From: Bacteroidota bacterium
GTDB taxonomy: Bacteria > Bacteroidota > Bacteroidia > B-17B0 > Aurantibacillaceae
Direction of reading: 5' to 3'
NCBI GenBank assembly: GCA_017303905.1
Contig: JAFLBH010000001.1
Coordinates: 1,403,809-1,467,808, forward strand
Length of the DNA stretch: 64,000 nt
A program made the position numbers and the translations under genes. Under the pieces are notes generated by a model. It ran no database searches. It was not told where the DNA came from and was given only the letters and a program-made list of their open reading frames with translations. Numbering within the stretch: position 1 is the first letter of the stretch; every line of letters starts with the position of its first letter. Shown in pieces: positions 2,208 to 42,727 of the stretch.

Positions 2208-4682
2208 ATGAAGCAGTTACTTGGTTGCTTAATATTTTTACTGTTACCGGTTTTATCGTTCTCGCAAACCGACAGTACTGCTGCTTCTACTCCTGAAGAT
2301 ACAACCTCCGTTTTTCTTAATCCGAAGGCGCCAATGGTACCGCCTTATGATATTAATTTTTTCCTCGGACCTGATACTGCTAAAAAAAGTATTTTTCCGG
2401 CTTACGAAGAATTTGATTACGGTCCGGGAATGCCTGTTTTTAATCCTAAAATTTCTTTAGGAACAGGAATGTTATCTTTTTATGGTGACCTTTATAAAAA
2501 GCATTATCAGTCTCCATGGACATCTCGCGTGGGTTATGATTTAAATGTATCGCACCGTTTAAATCGTTACCTGATGATTAACTTCAATTTGCTGTTTGGT
2601 AAATTAGGAGCCTATGAAAATCTTCCGAATCGTCACGAAAATTTCCAATCCGAAATAAGAGCAGGCGGAATTAATTTACTTTATGACTTCGGAAATTTTA
2701 TTCCTGACAGATACCGTATTCGTCCGTTTGTAAGTTTAGGAATTACAAGTTTCGAATTTTTATCTAAAACGGATTTGTATGATCGTAACGGAGAAAAGTA
2801 TCATTATTGGAGCGATGGATCTATTAAGAATATGGAAGAAGGAAGCGCGGGCTCGCAATTTGCGAAGGATTTAGTGAGGGATTACAGATACGAAACGGAT
2901 ATACGCGAACTTAACGCGGATGGATTTGGAAAATATCCTGAACGCGCATGGGCTGTTCCGTTCGGATTCGGCGCCATCATGCATATTACCGAGCGTTTTG
3001 ATTTCAAAATGGGGGTTCAGTATTATTTCACCAATACCGATTATATTGATGGAATTACCAATAAGAGTGTGGGAAATCGTGCCGGAACAAAAGCCATGGA
3101 TAAATTTGTTTATACATCGGTATCATTGCAATATGATTTAGTTCTAAACAGAAAGAAGAAAGACACTTTACCTGCTGAGTATTATGATAATTTAGATTGG
3201 TTGGCGATTGATAATGCGGATTATGATAAAGACGGTGTTCGCGATTGGGACGATAATTGCCAGGGAACTCCGGAAGGTGTAAAAGTGGATAAATTTGGGT
3301 GTCCTTTAGATGAAGATATGGACGGTGTTCCGGATTACCGAGATGAAGAACTGCCTTCGCCAAAAGGTTTTGAGGTTAATCTTAAAGGTATTGCCTTAAC
3401 GGATGAATTCTGGCAAGATTGGTACGACCATTATTTTGATTCGGTAGGCATTGACAGAACTACAGAGCAAATTGGAAATGCATTTGACTTAGTGATGCCA
3501 AAGACAAATAAGAAAAAGAAGAAAGAGCAAAGAAGCTATACAGTTGAATTGGCGCGTTATGCAGGCGGTGTGCCAAGTGATGAGATGGCTTATTTATTAA
3601 GTATTGGCGATATGAAGTCGACTGTTTTAGACGATGGAACAACAGTTGTTTATACGGCCGGTACATATGAAGAAGTGAAACAAGCGGCAAAACGTAGAGA
3701 TGAGTTTATGGCGGAAGGAAACAAAAAGGCCATGGTAGGTTATTTTAAAAACGACAAATACTCTACGATGACCGAGGAAGAATTGCAGGCCGCAATTAAA
3801 GAGTCGGATTTAGAAGCTGCGAATAACGCAACTCAAACTGCAGTTACAAGCGGTACAATAGCAGCAAACAACAATAATCAAAACAACCAGAATAACAATC
3901 AGGGTAACGAAACCGGTAATAACGCGAATAATAATCAAGGCAATGAAACCGGTAATAATGTAAATAATGCCAATAACAATCAAGGTAACGAAACCGGCAA
4001 CACTACAGGAAACAATACCGCAAATGCAAGCGGAACTACAACTGCAAGTTCAGGCGGAAATGAAACAGGTACATCTTCAGGTTCCGCTAACTTCGAAAAA
4101 GGATCGGTTGTTTATCGTGTGCAATTAGGCGCGTACAAGAATAAAATTTCAACCGCTGCATTTAAAAATTCGGATGTAGTAGAGTTAAAAACTGAAGACA
4201 ATTATTTCCGTTACGTTACCAATGGTTATAAAACATTGCAAGAAGCAGCTTCTAAACGTGCAGATTTAGTGTTATTAGGATATACAGATGCGTTTGTAAC
4301 TGCATATAAAGATGGAAAACGAATTGCAATGGAGAAGGCAGGCGCTACCATGGAAACAAAGCAAAAAGAGGACTTGAACGAAAGCAAAACATTCAGCACA
4401 ATTGATAAATCATTAATCAGTTTCAAACTACAAATTGGAGCATTAAAACGGCCTGCTGCTTCGGCGGATATGGATGAAAAAACCAAAGACTTACAAGGTG
4501 TAGAAAAACAAACCACTTCAACAGGCATGATTCGTTACAGCATTGGTTCTTATAAAGAGTATCAAAAAGCCGAAGAAGCACGTAAGCAGCTTGAAGACAA
4601 AGGTTTCCCTGAAGCATTCATAATCGCAATCTTTAAGGATGAAATTATTTCCTTGCAAGAGGCCATGGAATTGTTGAAATAG
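2208..4682 (+). CDS. Outer-membrane protein with TSP3 loops and three SPOR-like domains
   Basis: 824 residues with a clear signal peptide (MKQLLGCLIFLLLPVLSFSQ). Residues about 60-320 look like an OmpA-type or porin-like beta barrel. A TSP3-like calcium region follows (about 327-390; DYDKDGVRDWDDN and DEDMDGVPDYRDE). Then comes a SPOR-like unit from SYTVELARY (about 443-520), an Asn/Gly/Thr-rich linker (about 553-627), and two better SPOR-like domains starting VYRVQLGAY (about 634) and FKLQIGA (about 739). Inference: the barrel sits in the outer membrane and the SPOR units reach the peptidoglycan, tethering the two layers. It is a paralogue of the truncated protein at the window start. A weak -7-like box (TATCTTTA, 2185-2192) precedes it. 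Confidence 0.82.
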   Translation: MKQLLGCLIFLLLPVLSFSQTDSTAASTPEDTTSVFLNPKAPMVPPYDINFFLGPDTAKKSIFPAYEEFDYGPGMPVFNPKISLGTGMLSFYGDLYKKHYQSPWTSRVGYDLNVSHRLNRYLMINFNLLFGKLGAYENLPNRHENFQSEIRAGGINLLYDFGNFIPDRYRIRPFVSLGITSFEFLSKTDLYDRNGEKYHYWSDGSIKNMEEGSAGSQFAKDLVRDYRYETDIRELNADGFGKYPERAWAVPFGFGAIMHITERFDFKMGVQYYFTNTDYIDGITNKSVGNRAGTKAMDKFVYTSVSLQYDLVLNRKKKDTLPAEYYDNLDWLAIDNADYDKDGVRDWDDNCQGTPEGVKVDKFGCPLDEDMDGVPDYRDEELPSPKGFEVNLKGIALTDEFWQDWYDHYFDSVGIDRTTEQIGNAFDLVMPKTNKKKKKEQRSYTVELARYAGGVPSDEMAYLLSIGDMKSTVLDDGTTVVYTAGTYEEVKQAAKRRDEFMAEGNKKAMVGYFKNDKYSTMTEEELQAAIKESDLEAANNATQTAVTSGTIAANNNNQNNQNNNQGNETGNNANNNQGNETGNNVNNANNNQGNETGNTTGNNTANASGTTTASSGGNETGTSSGSANFEKGSVVYRVQLGAYKNKISTAAFKNSDVVELKTEDNYFRYVTNGYKTLQEAASKRADLVLLGYTDAFVTAYKDGKRIAMEKAGATMETKQKEDLNESKTFSTIDKSLISFKLQIGALKRPAASADMDEKTKDLQGVEKQTTSTGMIRYSIGSYKEYQKAEEARKQLEDKGFPEAFIIAIFKDEIISLQEAMELLK
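3866..4085 (+). repeat. Coding Asn-rich tandem repeat (NNNQGNETGN type)
   Basis: At least three copies of NNNQGNETGNN with Asn/Thr/Ser spacers form a flexible linker between the first SPOR-like unit and the two C-terminal SPOR domains of the host protein. Confidence 0.8.
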
Positions 4683-22796: not shown

Positions 22797-24320
22797 TTAT
22801 TTCTTTTCAGTAAGAGTTTTAGCTTCTTTTAAATCAATGCGTGTGCCGTTTTTGAAAGCCACCGCAAAACAATCTTTAAACCCGGCATCTCTCAATTTAG
22901 CCTGATGTTTAAACGCATCGTTCGCGTTATTAAAATTACCTGAAGTGTATTTATAAAAGCTTCCTACCTTGTAGTAACTGCCATTTTCAATCGCGGAAAA
23001 CTTGGCATCTTTTAAGTTCAGTTCCACATCGCTGCTGGCAAATTGCACTTTAAATTCAATTTTATCTTCAGTGTTACCTTCCATTTTTACCGGTGTGCTT
23101 TCCGGTTTTTCATCAGGGTCATTCACTACAACTTCTTTAGCAGGTGTTTTTTCAGGTTCCGGTTTCTTGTCTTCTTTCGGTTCTTGTTTTACGGTTTCTT
23201 CTTTGGTGGTTGAATCTGCCGGGTCAATTTCTTTCTCAGGAGTTTTTGTTTTTGCACTATCGGGTTTTGCCGCGGTTTCCTTACCGTTACCATTTCCATT
23301 TTCTTCTTCAACGGCATAGTCGTCTTTTTCTTCTTTCACCGGTTTACCGGTATTTCCCGCTTTTAAATTTTCATTTTCGAGTGGCTCCAGATTCGCGTAT
23401 TCATCATTGTATTCTTTCTTTTTTCCTTCTACTTCATCTTTAAACTTTCTGAAGCCATTGAAAATAGAAGCAGCCACATATTTTTGTCCTTTCTCCGAAC
23501 CTAAAAATTGTTCTTCTAATGGATTCGTTAAGAAACCTATTTCGGTTAATACACTCGGCATGGCTGTCCGCCACAATACCCAAATACTCTGACGATGCAC
23601 CCCTTTATCAACGCGTCCGGCTTTACTGGCGTACTCCGACTGAATTTTTAAAGCCAGATTAGCACTTTGAATCACGTAAGCAGACGTGTAATTACTCATG
23701 ATGATGTAACTTTCTTCGCTTTCAGGGTCAAAGCCCGCGTACTTTTGTTCGTAGTTGTCTTCTAATAAGATTACGGAGTTCTCACGTTGCGCCACTTTCA
23801 TCTTCCCCTCTTCATTTTTCAATCCCATCACATAAGTTTCAGAGCCAAACGGAACAGGATTGGTCGTTTCCACCACTACAATTTTTCCTTTTTTGTTTTT
23901 GTAAGTCTTAGCACGCAATTTTCCTGTTTTCTTATCACGAATCATAACCGGTTTACCGGCTGCGTTACAGTGTATGGAGATGAATAAATCCGCTTTATTT
24001 TTATTGGCAATCTGAGCACGATCTTCCAGTTCAACAAATACATCGGTAGTCCGCGTGTAAATGACTTTTACATCTTTGCAATGCTCTTCTATCAGTTTCC
24101 CTAACCTTAATCCTACAGCTAGCGAAATGTCTTTTTCCTTATGCGTGACGCCATTACAACCGGGGTCTTTTCCGCCATGTCCGGGGTCAATAACCACCAC
24201 TTTGATACCTTTCGGTTCATCCTTGCCAAAGGAGGCAAATAACACAAGGGAAAACAGGCAAACTGAGAGTAAAATGCCTATTTTTTTAAGGTTTTTTATT
24301 AATATCTTCTTATTGAGCAC
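22797..24320 (-). CDS. N-acetylmuramoyl-L-alanine amidase (Amidase_3) with SPOR-like tail
   Basis: Cleaves the amide bond between N-acetylmuramic acid and the stem peptide, as in cell division and cell-wall turnover. The frame runs back to 24542 without a stop, but the signal peptide begins at GTG 24320 (MLNKKILIKNLKKIGILLSV), giving 507 residues. Amidase_3 motifs include VVIDPGHGGKDPG with the zinc histidine, DLFISIHCNA and VLTEIGFLTNPLEE. An insertion of about 60 residues sits after SIHCNAAG (around 130-190). A long Lys/Glu/Pro-rich linker then leads to a SPOR-like end (KVQFASS to FAVAFKNGTRID). Its promoter (24360-24367) overlaps that of the lptD-like gene. Confidence 0.93.
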   Translation of the reverse strand: MLNKKILIKNLKKIGILLSVCLFSLVLFASFGKDEPKGIKVVVIDPGHGGKDPGCNGVTHKEKDISLAVGLRLGKLIEEHCKDVKVIYTRTTDVFVELEDRAQIANKNKADLFISIHCNAAGKPVMIRDKKTGKLRAKTYKNKKGKIVVVETTNPVPFGSETYVMGLKNEEGKMKVAQRENSVILLEDNYEQKYAGFDPESEESYIIMSNYTSAYVIQSANLALKIQSEYASKAGRVDKGVHRQSIWVLWRTAMPSVLTEIGFLTNPLEEQFLGSEKGQKYVAASIFNGFRKFKDEVEGKKKEYNDEYANLEPLENENLKAGNTGKPVKEEKDDYAVEEENGNGNGKETAAKPDSAKTKTPEKEIDPADSTTKEETVKQEPKEDKKPEPEKTPAKEVVVNDPDEKPESTPVKMEGNTEDKIEFKVQFASSDVELNLKDAKFSAIENGSYYKVGSFYKYTSGNFNNANDAFKHQAKLRDAGFKDCFAVAFKNGTRIDLKEAKTLTEKK

Positions 24321-24325
24321 TGTAG

Positions 24326-24343
24326 CTAAATACAAGTATTTAG
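24326..24343. promoter_or_regulatory. Palindrome in the amidase/lptD promoter region, candidate operator
   Basis: CTAAATAC and GTATTTAG, perfect 8-base arms with a 2-base centre, directly abutting the lptD -7 box and lying in the leader of the amidase mRNA. Confidence 0.55.
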
Positions 24344-24351
24344 TAGATTTG
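24344..24351 (+). promoter_or_regulatory. -7 box of the lptD-like gene promoter
   Basis: TAGATTTG, exact TAnnTTTG, 28 bases before the chosen TTG start at 24379. Confidence 0.55.
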
Positions 24352-24359
24352 TATCTTAT

Positions 24360-24367
24360 CAAAATTA
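24360..24367 (-). promoter_or_regulatory. -7 box of the amidase gene promoter
   Basis: TAATTTTG on the minus strand, exact TAnnTTTG, 40 bases before the GTG at 24320. It is 8 bases from the plus-strand box, so the two promoters overlap. Confidence 0.55.
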
Positions 24368-24378
24368 CTTTTAAAGGT

Positions 24379-26901
24379 TTGACCCTTACCGGCCGCGTTA
24401 TATTAGTTTTCTTATGGGCTTTGTTAATATCTGCCCCTAATAACGCCTCTGCGCAGACTACGTTACCCAAGGATAGTGTTAAAACTGTTAATTTGGATAC
24501 CCTTAAAGAGGAAGAAACTCTCGAGCATAAGGTGATTACCAACGCACGTGATTCGAGTCGTTTTGAAGCGGATGGGAAGAAGCTTTATTTGTTTGGGGAG
24601 GCTTATGTGGAGTATGATAACATGAATTTAAAGGCTGAGTTCATTGAGGTTGATTACGAAAAGAACCTGGTAACTGCTTACGGAAGGGTTGACTCTACCG
24701 GTAAAAAAACAGGAACTCCTGTTTTTAAGGATGCCAATGAGGAGTTTAACGCCGAAAAAATCATGTACAATCTTAAAACCAAAAAGGGAAAGATTTACAA
24801 TGTACTCACCAAACAAGGCGATTTATTGGTGTTTGGAAATGAAATTAAAAAAGATAGTACCGACATTGTTTACATGCGAAATTTAAAATGTATTCCTTGT
24901 CAGTATGATGATGCGCGCACTGTTTTTCGTGCTACTAAAGCTAAAATTATTCCCGATGATAAAATTGTTACCGGTCCGATGTATCTGGAAGTAGGAGGCG
25001 TGCCAACACCGCTGGTATTGCCTTTTGGATATTTTCCTAATTCGAAGCGTCGTCACAATGGCGTTTTATTGCCATTTGTTGGTAATTCACCCGGACAAGG
25101 TTATTTCCTGAAGGATGGTGGTTTTTATTGGGGAATAAGTGATAAAACCGATATGGTAATTCGTGGCGATATTTATTCGAATGGAAGTTGGGGCTTACGT
25201 ACAACGAATTCGTATAATGTTTTGTATAAATACAGCGGTGCTTTGAATTTAGGTTTTTCTGAATTTGTGATTGGAGATAAAGATGTGCCGTCGAGTTTTA
25301 GTAAGCAGCAATCTTATAATATTGGTTGGCTTCACACGCAGGATAATAAAAACAATCCATCGGTTCGATTTACATCCAATGTAAATTACATTAATCAGAA
25401 GTATAATAAATTTAATGCGCTGAATTCCGGACAATACTTAGCAAACACCTTTCAATCGAACATCAATTTCACAAAAAGTTTTCGTCGCAGTTCTTTAAGT
25501 GTGAATGCCACCGGAAGTCAAAATACCATTACGGGCTTGGTTGATTTATCATTTCCTCAACTCACCTTTAACGTGAATCGTTTTTTTCCTTTTAAACGAG
25601 AAAATGCGGTTAAGCAAAATGTATTAGACAAAATCGGAATTAGTTATTTGCTCGAAGCAAGAAATACTTTAACAGGATTTGATTCAGTCTTGTTTAAAGG
25701 TAATATTGCCGACCGTTTGCGCTACGGTATTAAACATAGTTTACCTATCTCCACTAATTTTAATGTGTTTAAATATATCACGGTTACACCGGCCTTAAAT
25801 TTAAGTTCGGTGATGTATACTAAGTCTACCAGAAAGGAATTTTTGTATTCCGATTACAAAGTTAATACAGATACCGTCAAAGCTTTCATTGCAGGATATG
25901 ATGCTAATTTTAGCACCAGCGCCTCAACCAAATTGTTCATGGATTACATTTTTAAATCGAAGCGTGTAAAACAAATCCGTCATTTATTAATTCCATCCTT
26001 AACTTATTTGTATCGTCCTGATTTCGGTGAAGAACAATATGGATTCTGGAAGAAGGTACAAGTAGATACCTTAGGCAATCAGCAATATTACAGCGTATTT
26101 GAGCAAAATATTTTTGGGGGTCCGGCATTGGGTGAACAAAATTCTTTGAGTTTAAATTTGAGTAATAACATTGAAGCCAAGGTTCGCCAGAAATCCGATA
26201 CAGGAATTACCTATAAAAAGGTAACTGTATTACAAAATTTAAGTGCAGGAGTGAGTTATAATTTTGCGGCAGATAGTTTTCAGTGGAGCAATGTTTCGGT
26301 AAGTGCGCGAAATAAACTTTGGAAGTTTTTTGATTTGGTAGGAAGCGCGACATTTGATCCGTATGGTTATAACTACACGACTAAAAAACGAATCAGCGTA
26401 TTAGCCAAAGAGTATAACGGAGAAATAGCACGATTAACCGTAGCGAACATAGCGGTAAACGCTTCCTTTAGTTCAAACATGGTAGAGGCGATGCGTAATG
26501 CACGTAAGCCGCCTAATATGACGAATGCTGCAGAGCGTGGCGCAGAGCAAAAAGCATCACCTCAAGAAAGATTGCCTTGGAATTTAAATGTGTATTATAA
26601 TTTAACCATTGATAAATCCATCACTGTTAAACCAAAGTTTGTACAATCTTTAAACTTTAATGGTGATATAAGCGTCACTAAATTCTGGAAACTTGGTGTG
26701 ACGAGCGGATATGATTTCACGAATAAAAAATTAAGTTATACGAGTGTGAATGTGTACCGCGATTTAAAGTGTTGGGAGGCTCGTATCGATTGGGTGCCCT
26801 TTGGCTTTAGAAAAAGTTACAGCTTAACCATCAATATCAAAACCAGTATGCTCAGCGATTTCAAAATTCCTCGTCAGCGTAACTGGTACGATAACTTCTA
26901 A
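24379..26901 (+). CDS. LptD/OstA-like outer-membrane LPS assembly protein
   Basis: LptD family proteins form the outer-membrane barrel that inserts lipopolysaccharide. The frame is open back to 24061, but that part lies over the amidase gene in antisense. The best start is TTG 24379, just downstream of the promoter and opening a good signal peptide (MTLTGRVILVFLWALLIS...NASAQ); this gives 840 residues. An OstA-like beta-jellyroll follows (GKKLYLFGEAYVEYDN, FNAEKIMYNLKTKKGKIYNV), then a long beta-barrel with VLPFGYFPNSKRRHNGVLLP. Only a single Cys pair (CIPC) is seen, unlike the multi-disulfide LptD of proteobacteria. It could be any Bacteroidota LptD paralogue, so I leave the symbol blank. 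Confidence 0.85.
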   Translation: MTLTGRVILVFLWALLISAPNNASAQTTLPKDSVKTVNLDTLKEEETLEHKVITNARDSSRFEADGKKLYLFGEAYVEYDNMNLKAEFIEVDYEKNLVTAYGRVDSTGKKTGTPVFKDANEEFNAEKIMYNLKTKKGKIYNVLTKQGDLLVFGNEIKKDSTDIVYMRNLKCIPCQYDDARTVFRATKAKIIPDDKIVTGPMYLEVGGVPTPLVLPFGYFPNSKRRHNGVLLPFVGNSPGQGYFLKDGGFYWGISDKTDMVIRGDIYSNGSWGLRTTNSYNVLYKYSGALNLGFSEFVIGDKDVPSSFSKQQSYNIGWLHTQDNKNNPSVRFTSNVNYINQKYNKFNALNSGQYLANTFQSNINFTKSFRRSSLSVNATGSQNTITGLVDLSFPQLTFNVNRFFPFKRENAVKQNVLDKIGISYLLEARNTLTGFDSVLFKGNIADRLRYGIKHSLPISTNFNVFKYITVTPALNLSSVMYTKSTRKEFLYSDYKVNTDTVKAFIAGYDANFSTSASTKLFMDYIFKSKRVKQIRHLLIPSLTYLYRPDFGEEQYGFWKKVQVDTLGNQQYYSVFEQNIFGGPALGEQNSLSLNLSNNIEAKVRQKSDTGITYKKVTVLQNLSAGVSYNFAADSFQWSNVSVSARNKLWKFFDLVGSATFDPYGYNYTTKKRISVLAKEYNGEIARLTVANIAVNASFSSNMVEAMRNARKPPNMTNAAERGAEQKASPQERLPWNLNVYYNLTIDKSITVKPKFVQSLNFNGDISVTKFWKLGVTSGYDFTNKKLSYTSVNVYRDLKCWEARIDWVPFGFRKSYSLTINIKTSMLSDFKIPRQRNWYDNF

Positions 26902-29626: not shown

Positions 29627-29714
29627 AGTATCTTTTAATTATCAAGACGTTATTGTTTAAATTAAGTCGCACGTATCAAATTTGCGTGGCTCAATTTTCT
29701 GCAATTTTATTTCA

Positions 29715-32321
29715 GTGGAAAATAACGTTACAATACCGGAGAAAAAATCAAGTGGTCCGATAAAAAGGATTTTTAAGTTTTTTGCATGGCTATTATTTAT
29801 CACTGTCTTTTTAATTGGATCAGCCATAGCCTTAGTATTTTTTTATGAAGATGAAGTTAAGCAAGCAATTATTGGTGAGCTGAATAAAAATTTAAAATCG
29901 GAAGTGCGAGTTGATCCCAAAAACATTGATATAACTTTTATAAAATCATTCCCAAAATGCGCCTTGGAGTTTAAGGATGTATTGATTCTGGAAGCATTGG
30001 AAAAAAAGGAGCGTGATACTTTAATCTACGCGAATGATATTTTATTAATGTTTAGTTTACAGGATATCTGGAATAAGAATTATACCATCAATAAAATTAA
30101 ATTAAACAAAGCGAATTTTTATCCCGCCATTGATAAAAGAGGAAACCCAAATTATATTTTCTGGAAATCGACTGAAACAAAAGGAAATGAAAAGGTAAGT
30201 TTTAAATTAGAAGAAATTTCACTGAGCGATATCCGCCTTCGGTTTAAGAATGCAAAAAACAGATTTAAAACCTCATTGCATTTTCATAATTCGGAGTTTA
30301 CAGGAAATTTTAGCGATAAGGAATTTGCCTTAGTCGCCAAAGGGAAAGCGGATGTGAATTACATCACAGGAAATAAAACCAATTACCTGCGAAATAAAAA
30401 AATTCGATACGACTTAGAGTTGAATGTTACAGGCTCTAATTACAATATCAATAAGGCAGAGCTTGCGCTTAATGAAATGTATTTTGCGCTGGAAGGTAAT
30501 TGTAAATATTCCGATAGTTTAGAAAAAGCCGATTTAACGTTCAGCGGTAAAAATCTGGACATAGCTTCCGTCTTATCGTTGTTGCCTGACGAACATTCCA
30601 ACAGAATAAAAGATTATGAGAGCGACGGTCAGTTTTACGGCAAAGGGAAAATAAACTATAAATCCGGTTTTGCACCGAACATTACGGCCGATTTTGGAAT
30701 AAAAAACGCGACAGTAACCTACAAGCCTAACAATACTCAATTAAAGGAATTAATTGTTGAAGGAAAACTTGTGAGCAATGAGAATGACAGTTATCTGAAT
30801 TTTGCCAATGTATCGGCAAACATGGGAAAGAATTCTATATCCGGTTTTTGCCTTCTGAGTAATTTAAGTGATCCTTATTTAAACATGAATGCAGAAGTGA
30901 ATACTGATTTAGCAGAATTAAATTCCTTTTGGCCAATTGACACATTAGAATATATAAGTGGTTCCATTCATTTAAACGCCTCTGTAAAAGGTAAACTCAG
31001 TGAAATAAAAAAGTCTGCTTTCTCTAATGATGTGATTGCGCAAGGAAAAGCAGACTTAAAGGAAATCAAAACTAAATTCAAAGATAAACCCAACGAAATA
31101 AATATTAGTACTGGTCATTTCGAAATGGCCAACCGCAGCGTGAAGCTGAATGATTTTAAAATTATCATTGGTAAATCTGATGTAGAATTGAATGGCGAAT
31201 TACCAGGTTTCATTAATTATTTAACCGATCAAAATGCACCGTTAGTGATTGATGCGAGTTTAAAATCAGGAAATTTAATTTTAGAGGATGTAATGTATGG
31301 AGGAGAAAGCAAAGGAGAATCACAACAAATAAATATTCCTTCTAATTTGAATTTTAAATTGGCTGCTGTTATCGAGAAATTGAGTTTTTCGAAATTTGAA
31401 GCCACAAATCTAAAAGGTGATGTGGTAATTGCTAATCAAAAGATTCTATTAAGTGATTTGTCGTTGAATACAATGGATGGGCACGCAGTCTTAAATGCCA
31501 GTGCAGATGCTTCCGGTGAAAACATTCATATCAAAGCTGCGTCGGATTTAAGCAAGATTAATATTTCGAAATTATTTTATCAATGCAATAACTTCGGACA
31601 AAACACACTTAATGAAAAACATTTGAATGGTTTTGCTACGGCAACTATAAATTTTTCGGGCGACTGGAGCAAAGCGTTGAATGCTGATTTGAATAGTGTA
31701 GCTGCAACCGGAAACTTAAGTATAGAACAAGGAAGGTTAGTTGATTTTAAGCCCTTGTTGAGTTTGTCAAAATATATTGAAGTAAATGAGTTGCGTGATA
31801 TAAAATTTCAGGCTTTGCAGAGTCATTTTGATATTGCGAATCAGGTTATTTCCATTCCAAAAACAACCATTAAAAATTCAGCCATGAATATTGATTTATG
31901 GGGTAAGCATACATTTAAAAACGAAATTGATTATCATATCCAGCTTTTGTTAAGCGAATTATTAGCGAATAAGAAGAGAGCGAACAAGCAATTGGATGAA
32001 GAAATGGAGGTGATGGAAAATGATCCCGAAAACAGAAGAAGTGTTTTTATTGTGATGACTGGAACAGTTGACAATCCTATTATTAAATACGACAGAAAAG
32101 GCTTGAAGCAAAAAATAGGTGAGGATATTAAAGCTGAAAAGCAAACCTTGAAACAAATACTGAAGGAAGAGTTTGGTTTGTTTAAAAAGGACAGCACACT
32201 CCTTAAGAACGAGAAACCAAAAGCTGAGGAAAAGTTTAAAATCGACTATGGCGATAACAAGGAGAACAAGCCAAAGCCATTACAACCTAAGAAAAAAGAA
32301 GAAGACGATGATGACTTTTAA
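29715..32321 (+). CDS. AsmA-like envelope protein
   Basis: 868 residues from the GTG at 29715 (MENNVTIPEKKSSGPIKRIFKFFAW by convention); an in-frame TTG at 29682 is possible but less likely. A short cytoplasmic tail leads into one transmembrane helix (about 20-42), followed by a long periplasmic part with the AsmA start pattern (LNKNLKSEVRVDPKNIDITF, FPKCALEFKDV) and an AsmA C-terminal region (LDLSKYIEVNELRDIKFQ-like, residues about 685-740). Its tail is highly charged. AsmA-type proteins act as lipid bridges between the two membranes; this role is inferred from the family. Its stop overlaps the desaturase stop by 4 bases. Confidence 0.85.
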   Translation: MENNVTIPEKKSSGPIKRIFKFFAWLLFITVFLIGSAIALVFFYEDEVKQAIIGELNKNLKSEVRVDPKNIDITFIKSFPKCALEFKDVLILEALEKKERDTLIYANDILLMFSLQDIWNKNYTINKIKLNKANFYPAIDKRGNPNYIFWKSTETKGNEKVSFKLEEISLSDIRLRFKNAKNRFKTSLHFHNSEFTGNFSDKEFALVAKGKADVNYITGNKTNYLRNKKIRYDLELNVTGSNYNINKAELALNEMYFALEGNCKYSDSLEKADLTFSGKNLDIASVLSLLPDEHSNRIKDYESDGQFYGKGKINYKSGFAPNITADFGIKNATVTYKPNNTQLKELIVEGKLVSNENDSYLNFANVSANMGKNSISGFCLLSNLSDPYLNMNAEVNTDLAELNSFWPIDTLEYISGSIHLNASVKGKLSEIKKSAFSNDVIAQGKADLKEIKTKFKDKPNEINISTGHFEMANRSVKLNDFKIIIGKSDVELNGELPGFINYLTDQNAPLVIDASLKSGNLILEDVMYGGESKGESQQINIPSNLNFKLAAVIEKLSFSKFEATNLKGDVVIANQKILLSDLSLNTMDGHAVLNASADASGENIHIKAASDLSKINISKLFYQCNNFGQNTLNEKHLNGFATATINFSGDWSKALNADLNSVAATGNLSIEQGRLVDFKPLLSLSKYIEVNELRDIKFQALQSHFDIANQVISIPKTTIKNSAMNIDLWGKHTFKNEIDYHIQLLLSELLANKKRANKQLDEEMEVMENDPENRRSVFIVMTGTVDNPIIKYDRKGLKQKIGEDIKAEKQTLKQILKEEFGLFKKDSTLLKNEKPKAEEKFKIDYGDNKENKPKPLQPKKKEEDDDDF

Positions 32322-34077: not shown

Positions 34078-34449
34078 ATGAAACTCATCATATCTATAGC
34101 ACTTTTTGTTTCTACTTTCTTCAATGCATTTGATGTGACGGATGATGTGGTAGCGGCCATCAAATCGGGTAAGTCTTCCGAATTAGTTAAGTTTTTTGAT
34201 GAAAAACTTTCAGTGAAAATTTTAAATCAGGAAGACTTATTAAGTAAATCGCAGGCCGAGGCTAATATTAAATTCTTTTTCGAAAAGCATGCAGTAAAAA
34301 ACTTTATTGTTTCTCACTCTAATTCGGTAAATGCTAATGTTCAATTTATCACCGGTACGCTCGAAACATCAGCCGGAAAATACAGAGTATCTGTTTTAAT
34401 CCGACGTAATTTAATTTCGCAATTCAGAATCGAGAACGAGAATGAGTAA
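34078..34449 (+). CDS. DUF4783 domain protein
   Basis: 123 residues with a signal peptide (about 1-17). The mature part (VVAAIKSGKSSELVKFFDE, NIKFFFEKHAVKNF, FITGTLETSAGKYRVSVLI) fits the DUF4783 family, small alpha+beta NTF2-like proteins seen in Bacteroidota, commonly next to nadC as here. Function unknown. Its stop overlaps the nadC start by 8 bases, so the two are coupled. A near-consensus -7 box (TAAATTTA) sits just upstream. Confidence 0.85.
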   Translation: MKLIISIALFVSTFFNAFDVTDDVVAAIKSGKSSELVKFFDEKLSVKILNQEDLLSKSQAEANIKFFFEKHAVKNFIVSHSNSVNANVQFITGTLETSAGKYRVSVLIRRNLISQFRIENENE

Positions 34450-35311
34450 TTACATTCAGCTGCACAGTAAGCACTTTGATTTTAAAAAATTTGTATTGTC
34501 TTGTCTACAAGAAGATGTAGGTGATGGCGATCATACTTCTCTTTCAACAATTCCCTCTCAGCATAAAGGCAAAATGCAGTTATTGGTGAAGGAAGATGGT
34601 ATTTTAGCAGGTGTAGAAGCAGCTCTTCAGATTTTTAAAATCATCGATAAGACCATTAAGGTAAAGTTACTTTTGAAAGACGGCACGCGTGTAAAAAAAG
34701 GTGATGTCGCTTTCTTTGTAGAGGGTAAAACACAAAGTCTGCTCACGGCTGAACGATTAGTGTTAAATGTGATGCAACGCATGAGTGGTATTGCAACTAA
34801 AACAGCACACTTACAAATTCTCTGCAGTGGAACCAAAGCAAAAGTGATTGATACACGTAAAACAACTCCAGGATTTCGTTTTTTTGAAAAGTGGGCCGTT
34901 GTTATTGGTGGTGGTGCCAATCATCGTTACGGCTTGTTTGATATGATTTTAATTAAGGATAATCATGTTGATTTTGCAGGTGGAATTACACAAGCAATTG
35001 ATGCGGCAAATGCTTATCTGAAATCGAAAAGAAAAAAGCTGAAGATAGAAGTTGAAACACGCACCATAGAGGATGTAAAAAAAGTATTGAAACATGGAGG
35101 TGTACACCGAATTATGCTCGATAATTATACACCTGCGCAAACTAAAAGAGCCGTTCAGCTCATCAATGGCCGGGTAGAAGTGGAGTCTTCAGGTGGTATT
35201 ACTGAAAAGAACATTGCTAAATACGCGCAAGCCGGGGTTGATTTTATATCCATAGGAGCCCTTACTCATCATATTAAAAGTTTGGATTTAAGTTTGAAAG
35301 CACTTAAATAA
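34442..35311 (+). CDS. nadC: Nicotinate-nucleotide pyrophosphorylase (carboxylating)
   Basis: Converts quinolinate and PRPP to nicotinate mononucleotide, in de novo NAD synthesis. 289 residues. Motifs are complete: EDVGDGDHTS at the N-terminus, AERLVLNVMQRMSGIAT, DTRKTTPGFR, NHRYGLFDMILIKDNH, VEVESSGGI and GVDFISIGALTH. No other NAD-synthesis gene is in the window. It is preceded by the DUF4783 gene with an 8-base overlap. Confidence 0.97.
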   Translation: MSNYIQLHSKHFDFKKFVLSCLQEDVGDGDHTSLSTIPSQHKGKMQLLVKEDGILAGVEAALQIFKIIDKTIKVKLLLKDGTRVKKGDVAFFVEGKTQSLLTAERLVLNVMQRMSGIATKTAHLQILCSGTKAKVIDTRKTTPGFRFFEKWAVVIGGGANHRYGLFDMILIKDNHVDFAGGITQAIDAANAYLKSKRKKLKIEVETRTIEDVKKVLKHGGVHRIMLDNYTPAQTKRAVQLINGRVEVESSGGITEKNIAKYAQAGVDFISIGALTHHIKSLDLSLKALK

Positions 35312-35342: not shown

Positions 35343-38300
35343 ATGAGGTTAATTCTTTTAGCTTTGATATTTCCTTTTTGCTTATTAGCTCAAACTGAAT
35401 ATATCGATTACCGTTCTGTTACCAACCCTCTTTATTGGAAAAACCGTAAACCACATGCCGCCTATTGGCAGCAGGATGTACATTATACAATCAAAGCCGA
35501 AATTAATGATAGTACTGATATTGTAAGCGGACATGAATCATTAACCTACTGGAATAACTCTCCTAATGATTTAAGCTTCGTTTATTTTCATTTATATAGT
35601 AATGCGCAAAACAAAGATTCTTATTTATCCGATCTGTATAAAAATAACGGGTACAAATTAAAGTATAGCAAATACAGAGAGAAAAATTTGGGAACCGTGG
35701 TTGAAACAATTTCCTTAAACGGAAAGGAGTTAAAAACCGAATTGGATAACACCATTTTAAAAGTGTATTTGCCTAAGCCTATTCCTTCCGGCGAATCAGT
35801 AACTTTTGAAATTGATTTTAAAACTTATTTTGATCAGGAAGTAATTCGTAACCGAATGAAAATGTTTAACTCGTTTGGAAGTAAACATTATGATTTGGTG
35901 CATTGGTACCCTCGTATTTCTGTATTTGATCGTAAGTTTAATTGGGATACAGATCAACACATGGACCATGAGTTTTATGGTGACTATGGTTCGTTTTATG
36001 TGGAGTTAACCATGCCGAATTATTACATTGTTGACGGTACCGGAACGATGGTGAATGAGAACGAAATGTTGCCTGACACATTACGCGCTAAACTTGATAT
36101 CAGTAACTTCTTCAATAAAAAATGGAATTCTCCTCCAAGTAAAATCATTGCAAAAAACGGAACCAAAAAAACCTGGAAATTCAGTTCGATAAATGTTCAT
36201 GATGTTGCTTACACTGCGGACCCAAATTATAGAATTGGTGAAGCCATTGCTGAAAATGGCGTGCGTTGTATTGCGCTTGTGCAAGAGCCGCATGCCGCAG
36301 GTTGGCGAAATGCGGCACAATACATGACTAAAATTATTGAGGTTAATAATTACAATATTGGTGTTTATCATTATCCTAAAATGATTTGTGCGGATGCCAA
36401 CGATGGGATGGAATATCCAATGATTACCTTAAACGGTGGCTATGATCCGGATTATCGATCACTTTTTATTCACGAAATGACGCACAACTGGTTTTTCGGG
36501 ATGGTGGGAAGTAACGAAACATACCGGGCTTTTTTAGATGAAGGTTTTACGCAATTTTACACTGCCGATACTTATCAGTTTATTGATGGGCCTTTATCAA
36601 AACGTATTCCGCCAAAAGGCAAGTATGCACAAAAATTCACATCATCTGTTCGTGTCATTGATGAACAAATTTACAATGGCTATTATGGCTCAGTGGTTAC
36701 ACGTGGCGAAGAAGTTTCGTTAAATACACATAGTGATGATTTTAATGGAGGTATCCGTCATGGTGGAGGTTACAGCAGTGTTTATTTTAAAACTGCAACC
36801 ATGCTAAAAAATTTGGAGTATGTTTTGGGGCGCGCCTTTTTTGACAAGGCTATGCAACATTATTTTAATCAATGGAAGGTATGTCATCCGTATCCCGAAG
36901 ATTTCAGAAACTCTATCATTCAATATACCGGTGTTGATTTAAATTGGTTTTTTGATCAATGGTTAGAAACCGGAAAAACTATTGATTACTCAATTGGAAA
37001 AATAAAAAAGAAAAAGGGAAGTGTTTATGAGATTACGTTTAAGCGTAAAGGTTCTATGCAAATGCCGGTTGATTTTACCATTATCGATAAGAATGATTCG
37101 GCACATCATTATTCTATTCCTAATACGTGGTTTCAAAAACCTACTGGCGCTAATACCTTGCCGCGTTGGATTGGATGGGGTCCAAAACTAAAAACTACCT
37201 ACACGGCAACAGTAACAATTAAGGAAAAAATCAAAAATATTATCATTGATCCTAGTTATCGCTTGGCGGATGTGGATATGGTTAACAATGTAAAGCGAAA
37301 TAAAATTGATTTAAAATTCGATTCAAAAATTTATAATCCTCCAAATTGGAAACAATACGATATGCGCGTTAGACCTGCTTTATGGTATAATGGATATGAT
37401 GGAATAAAAATTGGTGCGCATCTGAATGGAAATTACATGAATGTTAAACATGTTTTTGATTTAACCGCATGGTTTAGTACAGGATTAGGTCAAGCTCCTT
37501 TCGATAGTACGGTAAGTACTAACAGTTACAATCAGATTTCTTTTTTGTTTAATTATAAAACAAGTTTAAATCGATACTTGAAACGTAGTAATTTCTATTT
37601 GCAATTGAAATCCTTAGATGGATTAGATGGCGGTACAATTGGACTAGAAAGAAAAAACAATAGTGACAAAACTCGTTTTTATGCTCATTATAAAGCGATG
37701 CTGCGAGATCTACCGCAAGACATGATTTATTTACTCAATGATAAAGAGTGGGGGTATCAAAAGTTTAATGGAGCGTTTCATTTGGGTATGGAGCACAACT
37801 ATAAGTATAAACGTGGCGTAGGAAATATTTTACTTAATTTCCGTGCGTCAGCATTTACCAAGGATTACGATTACTCTGCTGTTACTTTAAATGTTGTAAA
37901 TAAAAATGATTTAGGAAGAATTAATATCAATACACGTGTTTTTGCGCAAATGGGATTCGGTAATAATATTCCTTCCGAATCAGCCTTGTATGTAGCAGGA
38001 GCCAATAATGAGGAATTAATGGATAATAAATACACGCGTTCAATGGGAATTTTTCCATCCGATTGGGCAGGTCATGGAAACATAACGAATCATTTTACTG
38101 CCGGCGGTGGCTTGAATTTAAGAGGTTATTCGGGCTATTTGTTGGCAGAGAAGGGTAGCGATGGTATTGTGAGATATAATTATAAAGGAACAAGCGGAGC
38201 GGCGTTTAATACAGAGATTGAATTTGGAGAATTATTCCGATTTATGAATTTCAAGTTTTTAAAGAACAGCATCAAAATGCAACCTTATTTATTTGCCGAT

Positions 38301-38528
38301 GCAGGACTCATCAATACAAATTACACATTTGAACCTTACAAGTTTAGTGAGATAATGTATGATGCTGGCGTTGGTACAACATTCAGCATTGTTCGTTGGG
38401 GATCACTATATGGCATCGCTCCATTAACGATTCGTTTTGATATGCCGATTTTCATTAGCCGTTTGCCTTATCAAGAAACAGACTATCTTCAATTCCGTTG
38501 GATGATAGGAATCAATAAAGCCTTTTAA
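35343..38528 (+). CDS. M1 zinc metallopeptidase fused to an outer-membrane beta-barrel
   Basis: 1061 residues with a signal peptide (about 1-17). The N-terminal half is an M1 peptidase: His377-Glu-Met-Thr-His381 and Glu400 give HEXXH-x18-E, with GG around 364 and the NETYRAFLDEGFTQF segment. The catalytic domain is followed by an M1-like helical part (residues about 480-560). From about 680 on the chain turns into alternating strands and ends with an outer-membrane-barrel-like terminal Phe; Leu926-Arg-Gly-Tyr929 recalls the loop-6 (V/L)RGY/F motif of Omp85 proteins. So it looks like a peptidase held at the outer membrane by its own barrel. The peptidase call is firm, the Omp85 link is tentative. 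Confidence 0.85.
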   Translation: MRLILLALIFPFCLLAQTEYIDYRSVTNPLYWKNRKPHAAYWQQDVHYTIKAEINDSTDIVSGHESLTYWNNSPNDLSFVYFHLYSNAQNKDSYLSDLYKNNGYKLKYSKYREKNLGTVVETISLNGKELKTELDNTILKVYLPKPIPSGESVTFEIDFKTYFDQEVIRNRMKMFNSFGSKHYDLVHWYPRISVFDRKFNWDTDQHMDHEFYGDYGSFYVELTMPNYYIVDGTGTMVNENEMLPDTLRAKLDISNFFNKKWNSPPSKIIAKNGTKKTWKFSSINVHDVAYTADPNYRIGEAIAENGVRCIALVQEPHAAGWRNAAQYMTKIIEVNNYNIGVYHYPKMICADANDGMEYPMITLNGGYDPDYRSLFIHEMTHNWFFGMVGSNETYRAFLDEGFTQFYTADTYQFIDGPLSKRIPPKGKYAQKFTSSVRVIDEQIYNGYYGSVVTRGEEVSLNTHSDDFNGGIRHGGGYSSVYFKTATMLKNLEYVLGRAFFDKAMQHYFNQWKVCHPYPEDFRNSIIQYTGVDLNWFFDQWLETGKTIDYSIGKIKKKKGSVYEITFKRKGSMQMPVDFTIIDKNDSAHHYSIPNTWFQKPTGANTLPRWIGWGPKLKTTYTATVTIKEKIKNIIIDPSYRLADVDMVNNVKRNKIDLKFDSKIYNPPNWKQYDMRVRPALWYNGYDGIKIGAHLNGNYMNVKHVFDLTAWFSTGLGQAPFDSTVSTNSYNQISFLFNYKTSLNRYLKRSNFYLQLKSLDGLDGGTIGLERKNNSDKTRFYAHYKAMLRDLPQDMIYLLNDKEWGYQKFNGAFHLGMEHNYKYKRGVGNILLNFRASAFTKDYDYSAVTLNVVNKNDLGRININTRVFAQMGFGNNIPSESALYVAGANNEELMDNKYTRSMGIFPSDWAGHGNITNHFTAGGGLNLRGYSGYLLAEKGSDGIVRYNYKGTSGAAFNTEIEFGELFRFMNFKFLKNSIKMQPYLFADAGLINTNYTFEPYKFSEIMYDAGVGTTFSIVRWGSLYGIAPLTIRFDMPIFISRLPYQETDYLQFRWMIGINKAF

Positions 38529-39163: not shown

Positions 39164-42100
39164 TTAGCGTGTAATCACTAATTTGCTAGTGCCGTTAAAA
39201 TTATTGCTACCGTTAATGGTAACAAAGTAAACGCCGCTGTTTAATGCTGAGGTATTTAATGTTAATGTATTTTCTCCACCCATTAACTTAGCTGTAGTTT
39301 CTTGAATTAAGATACGACCACTGATGTCATATACAGTTACTTTGTAGCTTGCATCGCCTTGTGCAGTAAATAACACGTTGGTTGCATCGCTAGCAGGATT
39401 TGGATATAATTTTAAATTTTCATTTGCAGATAATTTAACTTCATTTTCTTCTATACCGATTGCGTAAGGAATAGCATATTTATCTGTAGACCATAAACCA
39501 CGACCGTGTGTTGCAGCATAGATGACACCGTGGTTATAACACTGATAAGAAGGGAAAGTTTGCTGGCGTAATTGGAACACAGGAACGTTAGGGAAATTAC
39601 CGCCATTCTCTTTTACCCAAGTTGGAGAGGCAATCGTAATATCTGAAGTACTATAGATACCGTTCTCAGTTCCCACTAAAGCAACCTTGTTATCACTTAC
39701 TTCAAATAAACCGGTGTACGCAGGAATTAATGGTAAACCGGTTCCGTTCTTAGCGGTAAAGTTTGAAGCATCTGTGTTATTCATATTCATAGTAGTGATA
39801 TCGCTATTGCTTGTATAAACCGTAGCAGATTTGTTTTTATAACCACCACAAGTAATCATAAGAGTCTTGTCATCGTTAGAAATCGCTATACCTGTAACCG
39901 GATATTTAAAGCGACCTAAAGCAGTTGTTCTTGTAAGTGCTTTACGGCTATAGGTTGATGCAGAGTCAATATCAGACGAGAAAGTACCGCTATAATCAGC
40001 ACTTGAAGAATCTCCAAGAACTTCTAAGTGAGAAACTCTGTAAACATAATATGTAGTGTCGTTTTGTTTAGTTGTGAAATAGATATAATTACCATTATTA
40101 GCCCATTCTAAACGCGTGATTGTTGTTCCAATAACAGGAGATATTGTAGTTGAAGGTACGCCACCGGGACCATCCATACGAGAGTTTTTACCGGCAACTT
40201 TAAACCAATCAGGATTTGTACCAAAGTTTAGCGGACGTTTTACAATAAACACATTAGGACTTTCGGTGGTTCCGCTTGCACTAGTTCCTACAGCTAAACG
40301 TGCAGAACGCTTAAGCGGTAATTTCACGATTGGCATAATGGTAGCGTTTGCTGTAGAGTTTAATGGTGAGGTTAAACTTACTGTAGTTGTGAACGGTTGA
40401 CCACTGATGTCGGTATTTTCTAATTCAATAACGTCACCAATATCGTAACGAAGTTTTGTTGTTACAAATATATTACAAGAATCGCCGGGGTTGTTAGCGA
40501 AAGAAAAACGCACACTGTCAACCTTATTGCTATTTATGAAAACAGTATTATTACTTACAGAAGATGTATTTCCTTCACCAATTACATTAACAGCTGTGAT
40601 AGATGAACCCGAATATGTAGGAACTAATTTTAAATTCTGAGAGTATTTGTAACGAATTCTAATAGAGATGACAGATGAATCATTTGGAGCATTGTTAAAA
40701 GTAAATCGAATACTGTCATTTAAACTGCTGTTTGGGAAAACCATATTATTAGTAGCAGTTAATGTATTTGCACCCGCGCCTACAATTCTATATCCTGTTA
40801 CTACAGAACCGGTATAGGCTAGTGTCATTGAGAAACTCTGAGCAGCAGGAGGTGACAATAACTTGAAGCTGGTCATTTTTACAATAACTGAATCATATTT
40901 AGCAGTTGCTTTAGAGCGAGTGTTAGGTACCGTAAAAGTTGTAGCAGATACATTTGTATTAGTGAAAGCCTGTGTAGCAACTAATGATTGACCGGTCTTT
41001 TTTAAACTGGTAGTTGTAATAGCAACTGTATCGTATTTAGCACTTGCTTGAGGGCGAGTATTACCAACAGTAAAAGTTGATTTGGAATTAATTGTGTTTT
41101 GGAAAACCAAAGACGAAATCTCGTTCATGAATATGGCAGAGTCGAGCGTTTTGTAATTTTCCCATAAACGCATTGGAGTGTTTTCATTAGCAAAACCTGT
41201 TCCGCCCGGAGTTCCTGCACCACCTTTTAAGCGATACTGGATGTCGTAAAAAGTAGAAAAAGGAGAGAGACTGATATCACTTGTTCTGAAGATTGTTCCA
41301 TAAGCGCCTGAATAGAACATAACTTTAGGAGATAATTTTGAAAAGTCAGATTGGAAAGCGTCTGATGATCCAAAACTATTTGAATTTTGTATCGTATTAA
41401 GATTTCCAGGCAAGTATGTTAAACTATTTCCAATTGAACCACCCGCAATACCGGCATAAGGTACAACTACGTTAGTTGGAGTTCCCGGGTTGTTACGCGG
41501 ATAAATAGGGAAAGTAACAGAGTTGAATTGCGAGATATTTAAACCATTATTGAACGGTAAAAATCCGGCATTACTGGAAACTGATTTATAAACTCCGGCA
41601 TCTGTAGCTACATATAATACATTGTTTACACCATCAAATTTAAAGTCGTGTATTTTAGAGTGAACATAAACAGCCAATGGTAATGGAGCTGAAGTAAAGG
41701 CAATTTGAGTCCAATTTCCTTGTCCTAAAGGATTTCCGACAATTTGATTCCAGCCATAAAAAGATTCACTACCTAAATACAACATGGTTTTATTAGCCGG
41801 ATCCACAGCAATAGTGTTAGCATAATCTCCAAATCCGGTTGTTCCAAATACCATTGGATCAACTTGTGATGTTGGAGGCGTAATTGTTGCCCATGTAGTT
41901 CCTTTATTATCTGATACTAAGATACCACCCATATTGCCTGAGGTAGTTGTTACTGTTTTTTGTTTGGCAATACTTAAGTAAACATAGTTAGGGTCGGAAG
42001 GAGCAACAGCAATCTCAATCCGGCCACGATCTGTAATATTAGTTGGTGTGATATCGGTATATGTTGAACCAGATGCTGGTTTAAAAAACACTTTAGAAGT

Positions 42101-42727
42101 TTTGATATCTTTTGAACCTGCAGAGAAAAACACATCACCTAATGTGTTGATTTTAACATCCATACCGGGTAAAGAACCTGATTCGGTAACCTGAGTGAAA
42201 TTTGCCCCTGCGTCAGTTGAGAAGAAAAATCCTTTATTCGCCGCAACATAAATTGTTCCAGATTGGTCGATAGCTAATTCATTTACATTACCAAAAAGCG
42301 AAGAATCTTTCACTAATGTAACTGTACCCGCTGAATTCATTTTATACAATCCGGTTCCAATAAATCCGGAAGAGCCAGCACCATCGCCACCGCGACCAAA
42401 AGTTTCCCCTGTCCCAAAAAATATAGTTCCGTCAGAAGCTTGAGCCATAGTGCTAACAATCAATGAGGTTGATTGATCATTCATCGGCAACCAGGTTCCA
42501 CCACTATTCGTAGATTTGAAGATTCCACCTGAAACACCCGCAGCGTAAACTGTCTTGTTTGTCGGATCTTGGCGATCGATTAAGATAGAACGAGTTCTTC
42601 CCGAAATATCATTTGGACCCATTTCCGACCAGGTTAAACCTAATTGCGCCAAAGCATTTCCGCCTACAAATAAAGCACCTAAAAGAAGCGCATTTTTCAA
42701 TTGATTTTTAATAAATTTTGAAATCAT
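39164..42727 (-). CDS. Large secreted sortilin/BNR-repeat T9SS cargo protein
   Basis: 1187 residues. The signal peptide (about 1-28) leads into a long beta-propeller-like region with BNR/sortilin-type repeats (VSGGIFKSTNSGGTWLPM, STDAGANF, VSDNKGTTWATI, TDAGVYKSVS). In the middle (about 560-800) lie modules unlike the rest, including two related pairs: FTVGNTRPQASAKYDTVAI against FTVPNTRSKATAKYDSVIV, and NDSIRFTFNNAPNDSS against VDSVRFSFANNPGDSC. The end is a T9SS type A sorting domain (LKLYPNPASDATNVLF to KLVITR). So the protein is probably exported to the surface. Function of the propellers, binding or hydrolysis, cannot be told. Confidence 0.9.
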   Translation of the reverse strand: MISKFIKNQLKNALLLGALFVGGNALAQLGLTWSEMGPNDISGRTRSILIDRQDPTNKTVYAAGVSGGIFKSTNSGGTWLPMNDQSTSLIVSTMAQASDGTIFFGTGETFGRGGDGAGSSGFIGTGLYKMNSAGTVTLVKDSSLFGNVNELAIDQSGTIYVAANKGFFFSTDAGANFTQVTESGSLPGMDVKINTLGDVFFSAGSKDIKTSKVFFKPASGSTYTDITPTNITDRGRIEIAVAPSDPNYVYLSIAKQKTVTTTSGNMGGILVSDNKGTTWATITPPTSQVDPMVFGTTGFGDYANTIAVDPANKTMLYLGSESFYGWNQIVGNPLGQGNWTQIAFTSAPLPLAVYVHSKIHDFKFDGVNNVLYVATDAGVYKSVSSNAGFLPFNNGLNISQFNSVTFPIYPRNNPGTPTNVVVPYAGIAGGSIGNSLTYLPGNLNTIQNSNSFGSSDAFQSDFSKLSPKVMFYSGAYGTIFRTSDISLSPFSTFYDIQYRLKGGAGTPGGTGFANENTPMRLWENYKTLDSAIFMNEISSLVFQNTINSKSTFTVGNTRPQASAKYDTVAITTTSLKKTGQSLVATQAFTNTNVSATTFTVPNTRSKATAKYDSVIVKMTSFKLLSPPAAQSFSMTLAYTGSVVTGYRIVGAGANTLTATNNMVFPNSSLNDSIRFTFNNAPNDSSVISIRIRYKYSQNLKLVPTYSGSSITAVNVIGEGNTSSVSNNTVFINSNKVDSVRFSFANNPGDSCNIFVTTKLRYDIGDVIELENTDISGQPFTTTVSLTSPLNSTANATIMPIVKLPLKRSARLAVGTSASGTTESPNVFIVKRPLNFGTNPDWFKVAGKNSRMDGPGGVPSTTISPVIGTTITRLEWANNGNYIYFTTKQNDTTYYVYRVSHLEVLGDSSSADYSGTFSSDIDSASTYSRKALTRTTALGRFKYPVTGIAISNDDKTLMITCGGYKNKSATVYTSNSDITTMNMNNTDASNFTAKNGTGLPLIPAYTGLFEVSDNKVALVGTENGIYSTSDITIASPTWVKENGGNFPNVPVFQLRQQTFPSYQCYNHGVIYAATHGRGLWSTDKYAIPYAIGIEENEVKLSANENLKLYPNPASDATNVLFTAQGDASYKVTVYDISGRILIQETTAKLMGGENTLTLNTSALNSGVYFVTINGSNNFNGTSKLVITR

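Follow-up and report, generated by a model that had tools for sequence, protein, structure and literature searches.

An M1 metallopeptidase predicted to be fused to an Omp85-type outer-membrane barrel in Bacteroidota

Gene and protein architecture

The window analyzed here, a stretch of 64,000 nucleotides from a Bacteroidota bacterium of the family Aurantibacillaceae, carries the unbroken reading frame of a 1061-residue protein in which an intact M1 zinc-peptidase site is combined with a separate C-terminal 16-stranded barrel (Table 1). The N-terminus reads, by inspection, as a Sec-type signal peptide, as had been claimed in the original prediction made from the sequence of this gene; the N-termini of most orthologues are likewise hydrophobic, and the conservation of Gln17 among orthologues is at least 90%. 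The possibility that the gene is an artefact, i.e., a frame fusion or an assembly join of two adjoining genes, is practically negligible: the fused form occupies a single frame in more than 100 full-length orthologues, which stem from many different assemblies, with identities down to approximately 27%, and these open frames refute the artefact. Among plasmid records, none reached a query coverage of 80%; those listed matched through M1 only, with a coverage of at most 58%.

The full-length protein was modelled with AlphaFold2 from an alignment of 35 diverse sequences (pLDDT 87.7, pTM 0.84), and the pTM value suggests that the enzyme and barrel halves are packed in a defined way. No Pfam match to POTRA (PF07244) was obtained for the fusion protein at E up to 1. 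The segment linking the enzyme to the barrel was considered as a POTRA domain and ruled out, since it is all-beta in the model. The M1 peptidase occupies the slot where BamA and TamA carry their POTRA domains.

Table 1. Features of the fusion gene and its conserved neighbour in the window
Feature	Residues	Position	Strand	Basis
M1 peptidase-Omp85 barrel fusion, 1061 aa		35343..38528	+	ORF, Pfam, AlphaFold2 model
Putative Sec signal peptide	1-16	35343..35390	+	By inspection; likely cut between A16 and Q17
M1 peptidase region (N-terminal beta domain, catalytic domain, beta domain)	43-640	35469..37262	+	PF01433, Foldseek, VIA-align
GMEY, counterpart of M1 exopeptidase motif GXMEN	355-358	36405..36416	+	Glu357 kept in 114/115 rows
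Zinc motif HEMTH	377-381	36471..36485	+	Sequence, alignment of 115 rows
Glu400, third zinc ligand	400	36540..36542	+	Kept in 115/115 rows; aligned to Glu of PepN LKEG
Tyr481	481	36783..36785	+	Profile-aligned to catalytic Tyr381 of E. coli PepN (2dq6); kept in 114/115 rows
All-beta domain linking enzyme to barrel	548-635	36984..37247	+	Secondary structure of the model
16-stranded Omp85-type barrel (predicted)	672-1061	37356..38525	+	Two AlphaFold2 models, Foldseek, VIA-align
Long loop 6, strands 11/12	873-951	37959..38195	+	Model, alignment
LRGY	926-929	38118..38129	+	Arg-Gly in 115/115 rows
nadC, conserved neighbour, outside the mechanism		34442..35311	+	PF01729, E 1.7e-56

The M1 peptidase half

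The only significant Pfam match of the protein was PF01433 (Peptidase_M1), which covered residues 373-540 with an E-value of 1.2e-12 and 48.3 bits (cut-off 27.7); the same family was matched by all 35 members of the alignment at E up to 1. The complete M1 zinc site that had been claimed was confirmed in the translation, with HEXXH at residues 377-381 (HEMTH) and Glu400 placed 19 residues past His381 (HEXXH-X18-E). The upstream GMEY is a variant of GXMEN with Tyr replacing Asn.

Regarding structural comparisons of the full-length model, the best Foldseek match was ERAP1 (6m8p, E 2.6e-21), and VIA-align gave a Z-score of 28.6 with 3q7j and approximately 27 with LTA4H; for this predicted model the Z-scores to tricorn factor F3, IRAP, ERAP1 and LTA4H were about 27-28. 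M1 structures alone occupied the top rows of the fold search with the whole model and the M1 domain filled the list, and because of this dominance the barrel was folded separately. The conserved zinc ligands and Tyr481, together with the predicted M1 fold, lead us to expect that most members would be active aminopeptidases.

The Omp85-type barrel half

The barrel alone, modelled with AlphaFold2 from 42 sequences, reached a pLDDT of 88.5 and again had 16 strands, and an alternation of polar and non-polar residues was seen by eye in nearly all of them. Barrel strands ending in Phe had been proposed for the last 350 residues; the barrel and the terminal Phe stood, whereas the extent had to be enlarged to approximately 390 residues (672-1061). 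A beta-sandwich or propeller, the outcomes that would have spoken against a barrel, is absent from both models. The longest loop of the barrel (residues 873-951) holds the LRGY motif, lies between strands 11 and 12 in the full-length model as well as in that of the barrel alone, and was placed as loop 6 of Omp85 proteins. The likening of LRGY at residues 926-929 to this loop, first made from sequence, agrees with the predicted position and with the Arg-Gly pair found in every row of the alignment. Loop 6 of BamA from F. johnsoniae also carries LRGY (PMC12611786).

When the barrel model was searched with Foldseek, 50 of the 50 best matches listed were Omp85 entries (BamA and TamA), the best being TamA (4n74, 6.4e-9). 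The list obtained with VIA-align consisted of BamA, TamA and mitochondrial SAM with Z-scores of 18-20 (BamA of D. radiodurans 20.3, BamA of F. johnsoniae 19.3, TamA 18.1-18.8). A structure prediction of the C-terminal part and a search against barrel families had been put forward as a check; the prediction gave a 16-stranded barrel and the 50 best matches listed were of the Omp85 type. The idea of an M1 peptidase built into a barrel is upheld by the prediction of two folds, the structural matches of which are M1 and Omp85, respectively.

At the level of sequence, no direct Omp85 domain match, including PF01103, was obtained for the window protein in the Pfam and NCBIfam searches, and the barrel profile had no match among PDB chain sequences. 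A relative with the M1-barrel architecture (L144) matched PF01103 with a score of 27.3 (cut-off 24), and TIGR03303, the NCBI BamA model, was matched by three sequences of the barrel alignment (best E 3.5e-5). Other Omp85 proteins are encoded separately in the genome of the window, and POTRA domains are present in two of these. A profile comparison between the barrel and the family of one of them, a plain Omp85 protein (L135), yielded an hhalign E-value of 0.0018 and a probability of 15%, in register at LRG-Y and the last strands; comparison with a POTRA-bearing Omp85 protein (L136) yielded no in-register alignment (E 0.18). The C-terminal half is probably homologous to known Omp85 proteins, to which it is linked via relatives of the same architecture.

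Conservation among orthologues

The alignment comprised 115 rows, i.e., the query and 114 full-length orthologue sequences, including the window's own copy and some from near-identical genomes. Glu378, Glu400, Arg927 and Gly928 are present in 115/115 rows, His377 and His381 each in 114 and Phe1061 likewise in 114. Among the 114 orthologue rows the zinc ligands and Tyr481 are intact in 113, the exception being L049, and the Arg-Gly of the loop is found in all. The pattern was unchanged in 35 rows selected at less than 68% identity. Conservation over 115 rows argues that the co-occurrence of the motifs is not due to chance, and the retention of zinc ligands and catalytic Tyr in 113/114 orthologues speaks for selection on catalysis in most lineages.

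Distribution in Bacteroidota

An orthologue, in some cases fragmented, was present in 34 of the 37 Aurantibacillaceae genomes searched; in the remaining three (G005, G016 and G022) the best matches were the paralogue or weaker. The fused form was found in 17 of 23 other sampled families of the class, and two further families have a degenerate enzyme (L049, genome G037) or the barrel only (L048, genome G040). In the phylum as a whole, a match to the barrel profile was obtained in 89 of 395 genomes, and distant families also encode relatives with the M1-barrel architecture (L139, L141, L142, L144 and others), so that the proposed search for further fusions in Bacteroidota found them across many families.

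A second M1 protein of the window's own genome, with 1033 residues (L031:1408-4506; G000:C1, about 1771673-1776355), belongs to a family of 21 members that is conserved in related genomes, and all of the members retain HEXXH and the following Glu. Profile comparison makes the C-terminal half of this family a homologue of the barrel over its first half (hhalign probability 95%, E 2.8e-8), and L031 is a probable second M1-barrel fusion in the same genome.

Separated halves and degenerate forms

In L049 (4001-7039, reverse strand) the M1-like region lacks HEXXH, with barrel and LRGY intact, which makes this protein a candidate pseudo-enzyme. In L048 (4001-5812, reverse strand) the barrel is kept and an unrelated N-terminal part of approximately 200 residues, for which no significant Pfam match was found, replaces the M1 region; the gene adjoins nadC, and the succession of rlmH, the DUF4783 gene and nadC ahead of it matches that in the window. 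Stand-alone relatives of the barrel with approximately 420 residues and the motif NLRGY (L237-L256) come mostly from one other family and score below the Pfam Omp85 threshold; in L252 two such barrels are encoded in tandem (1495-2808 and 2870-4153, both reverse strand). M1 peptidases of approximately 630 residues, which are common in Bacteroidota (for example L050, L052 and L156), are close relatives of the enzyme half and are missing the barrel.

In the barrel tree, M1-free barrels appear at two separate places (L048 and the group of approximately 420 residues), both inside the fused forms as drawn, and in the enzyme tree the M1-only peptidases are nested among fused forms; both trees were made by a quick method and midpoint-rooted. 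The nesting of the M1-only peptidases makes loss of the barrel likely, and an ancestral fusion with later loss of either half is tentatively favoured as the order of events. Two results are robust: either half is also found on its own, and the barrel outlives the loss of catalysis. As the zinc site is lost in L049 and the M1 region is absent from L048 and the proteins of approximately 420 residues, the barrel is apparently useful without the enzyme and may be more than an anchor.

Genomic neighbourhood

Upstream of the barrel gene, rlmH and nadC were found in 20 of the loci examined, with a DUF4783 gene also present in 18 of these 20, and their recurrence indicates an old chromosomal position. 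In one distant family, nadC and the M1-barrel gene are separated by an inner-membrane gene of the BrkB family (PF03631; L035:7333-8256, reverse strand), which is absent from the window. The recurrent neighbours in the loci examined were limited to rlmH, DUF4783, nadC and the BrkB-family gene, with no co-conserved cargo gene among them; considered as functional partners, these four were set aside, as they show no obvious mechanistic link.

Other genes were noted in the window. Downstream, at 39164-42727 on the reverse strand, a protein of 1187 residues is encoded that has sortilin-like repeats (by eye) and whose C-terminus looks like a type IX secretion sorting domain. Envelope genes resembling LptD/OstA-type barrels and AsmA (by eye) lie at 24061-26901 and 29682-32321, respectively, on the forward strand; the AsmA-like neighbour is present in just four of the loci checked.

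Interpretation

Both ends of Omp85 barrels are periplasmic, so that a domain preceding strand 1 is expected in the periplasm. In PlpD, a patatin-Omp85 protein of Pseudomonas aeruginosa, the enzyme domain is periplasmic (PMC11116518), and on topology and this analogy taken together an M1 domain facing the periplasm, i.e., an aminopeptidase fixed to the inner side of the outer membrane, is favoured. The preferred reading, to which we assign a probability of about 0.62, is that of an exported M1 metallo-aminopeptidase tethered periplasmically by its own Omp85 outer-membrane barrel. The gene product would be exported via its signal peptide, and the barrel would insert into the outer membrane and hold the enzyme at the barrel's periplasmic opening; there the enzyme may remove N-terminal residues of nearby peptides or protein termini. 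The original prediction had allowed for either a surface or a periplasm-facing peptidase on its own barrel; the periplasmic option is the one favoured, whereas surface display is without support. Transfer of the M1 domain to the cell surface through its own barrel, in a type Vd-like manner, is very improbable: the order of an N-terminal enzyme and an Omp85 barrel is identical in PlpD, which was originally described as exporting its patatin domain, but that description was later overturned (PMC11116518), and a folded M1 protein of approximately 600 residues would have to traverse a barrel whose loop 6 is long.

An unlikely alternative is a barrel that is still an Omp85 insertase or translocase, with the M1 domain trimming or docking the passing cargo. 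Apart from the patatin type, all characterized Omp85 proteins assemble or translocate proteins (PMC11116518), the Arg-Gly of loop 6 is invariant, and retention of the barrel where the enzyme is degenerate or absent indicates a function of its own; however, the protein has no POTRA domain to take in cargo, the conserved neighbourhood offers no cargo gene, and the POTRA-bearing Omp85 proteins of the same genome are encoded separately. Nothing was found in support of the earlier suggestion that one protein both translocates and trims its cargo. Distinctly improbable is a barrel acting as a sensor or transporter for a lipid or small molecule, with the M1 part as a regulatory or structural module and catalysis secondary; the lost zinc site of L049, the unrelated part in L048 beside nadC, the stand-alone barrels and the altered membrane lipids upon loss of PlpD (PMC11116518) would fit such a role, but the near-universal retention of zinc ligands and catalytic Tyr does not.

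Returning to the tethered periplasmic aminopeptidase, the invariant residues of loop 6 and the persistence of barrels that have no enzyme suggest a role beyond anchoring, for which the barrel may also be a pore, an insertase or a sensor. A rather doubtful extension is that the M1-Omp85 proteins form an ancient Bacteroidota subfamily in which barrel and peptidase are one working unit, the M1-only and barrel-only proteins being its broken-off halves; for example, a gated pore might pass or sense peptides, which the aminopeptidase would trim at the periplasmic mouth.

Comparison with known systems

Known M1 aminopeptidases are normally soluble or bound by a single helix. The catalytic domain, HEXXH-X18-E, a GXMEN-like motif and the catalytic Tyr are shared with PepN, ERAP1, LTA4H and the two-domain M1 peptidase of Deinococcus, whereas in the present protein the enzyme is followed by an outer-membrane barrel. 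Regarding the other half, the 16-stranded barrel is common to TamA and to the Bacteroidota BamA of F. johnsoniae, the latter also sharing LRGY in loop 6 (PMC12611786); BamA and TamA, however, carry POTRA domains in place of the enzyme, and the identity across the aligned barrel is approximately 13%.

PF00149, the calcineurin-like phosphoesterase family, had no match in the window protein in the Pfam search, whereas it defines the 'Metallo' subfamily in the catalogue of Heinz and Lithgow (2014), in which ten Omp85 subfamilies, including patatin, WD40 and barrel-only types, are distinguished (PMC4104836). That subfamily likewise places a metal-dependent enzyme domain other than POTRA ahead of an Omp85 barrel, but with PF00149 instead of M1 (PF01433), and was reported to be conserved at the genus level only (PMC4104836); the M1 form, in contrast, was found here in many families. 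The M1-Omp85 combination is absent from these ten subfamilies (PMC4104836). A full-text literature search, with preprints and most subscription-journal papers outside its coverage, returned no experiment on any family member and no paper on an M1-Omp85 fusion, which as predicted here would be an enzyme-bearing, POTRA-free Omp85 protein that is apparently undescribed.

The nearest known analogue is PlpD. This type Vd protein likewise combines an N-terminal enzyme with a C-terminal 16-stranded Omp85 barrel, but its enzyme is a patatin phospholipase accompanied by POTRA, whereas the window protein lacks POTRA and carries an M1 zinc peptidase; a patatin domain was not found in the latter, PF01433 being its one Pfam match. 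The M1-Omp85 protein hints at outer-membrane proteolysis in a phylum of environmental and medical importance, and with its naturally occurring relatives, some enzyme-dead and others reduced to the barrel, the role of each half can be tested separately. Omp85 barrels are known as universal devices that insert outer-membrane proteins or export them. The view of every Omp85 protein as a protein mover was overturned by PlpD, the enzyme-bearing form that has been studied well, and the widespread M1 form provides a second, independent test of a possible reuse of the Omp85 scaffold as an enzyme anchor.
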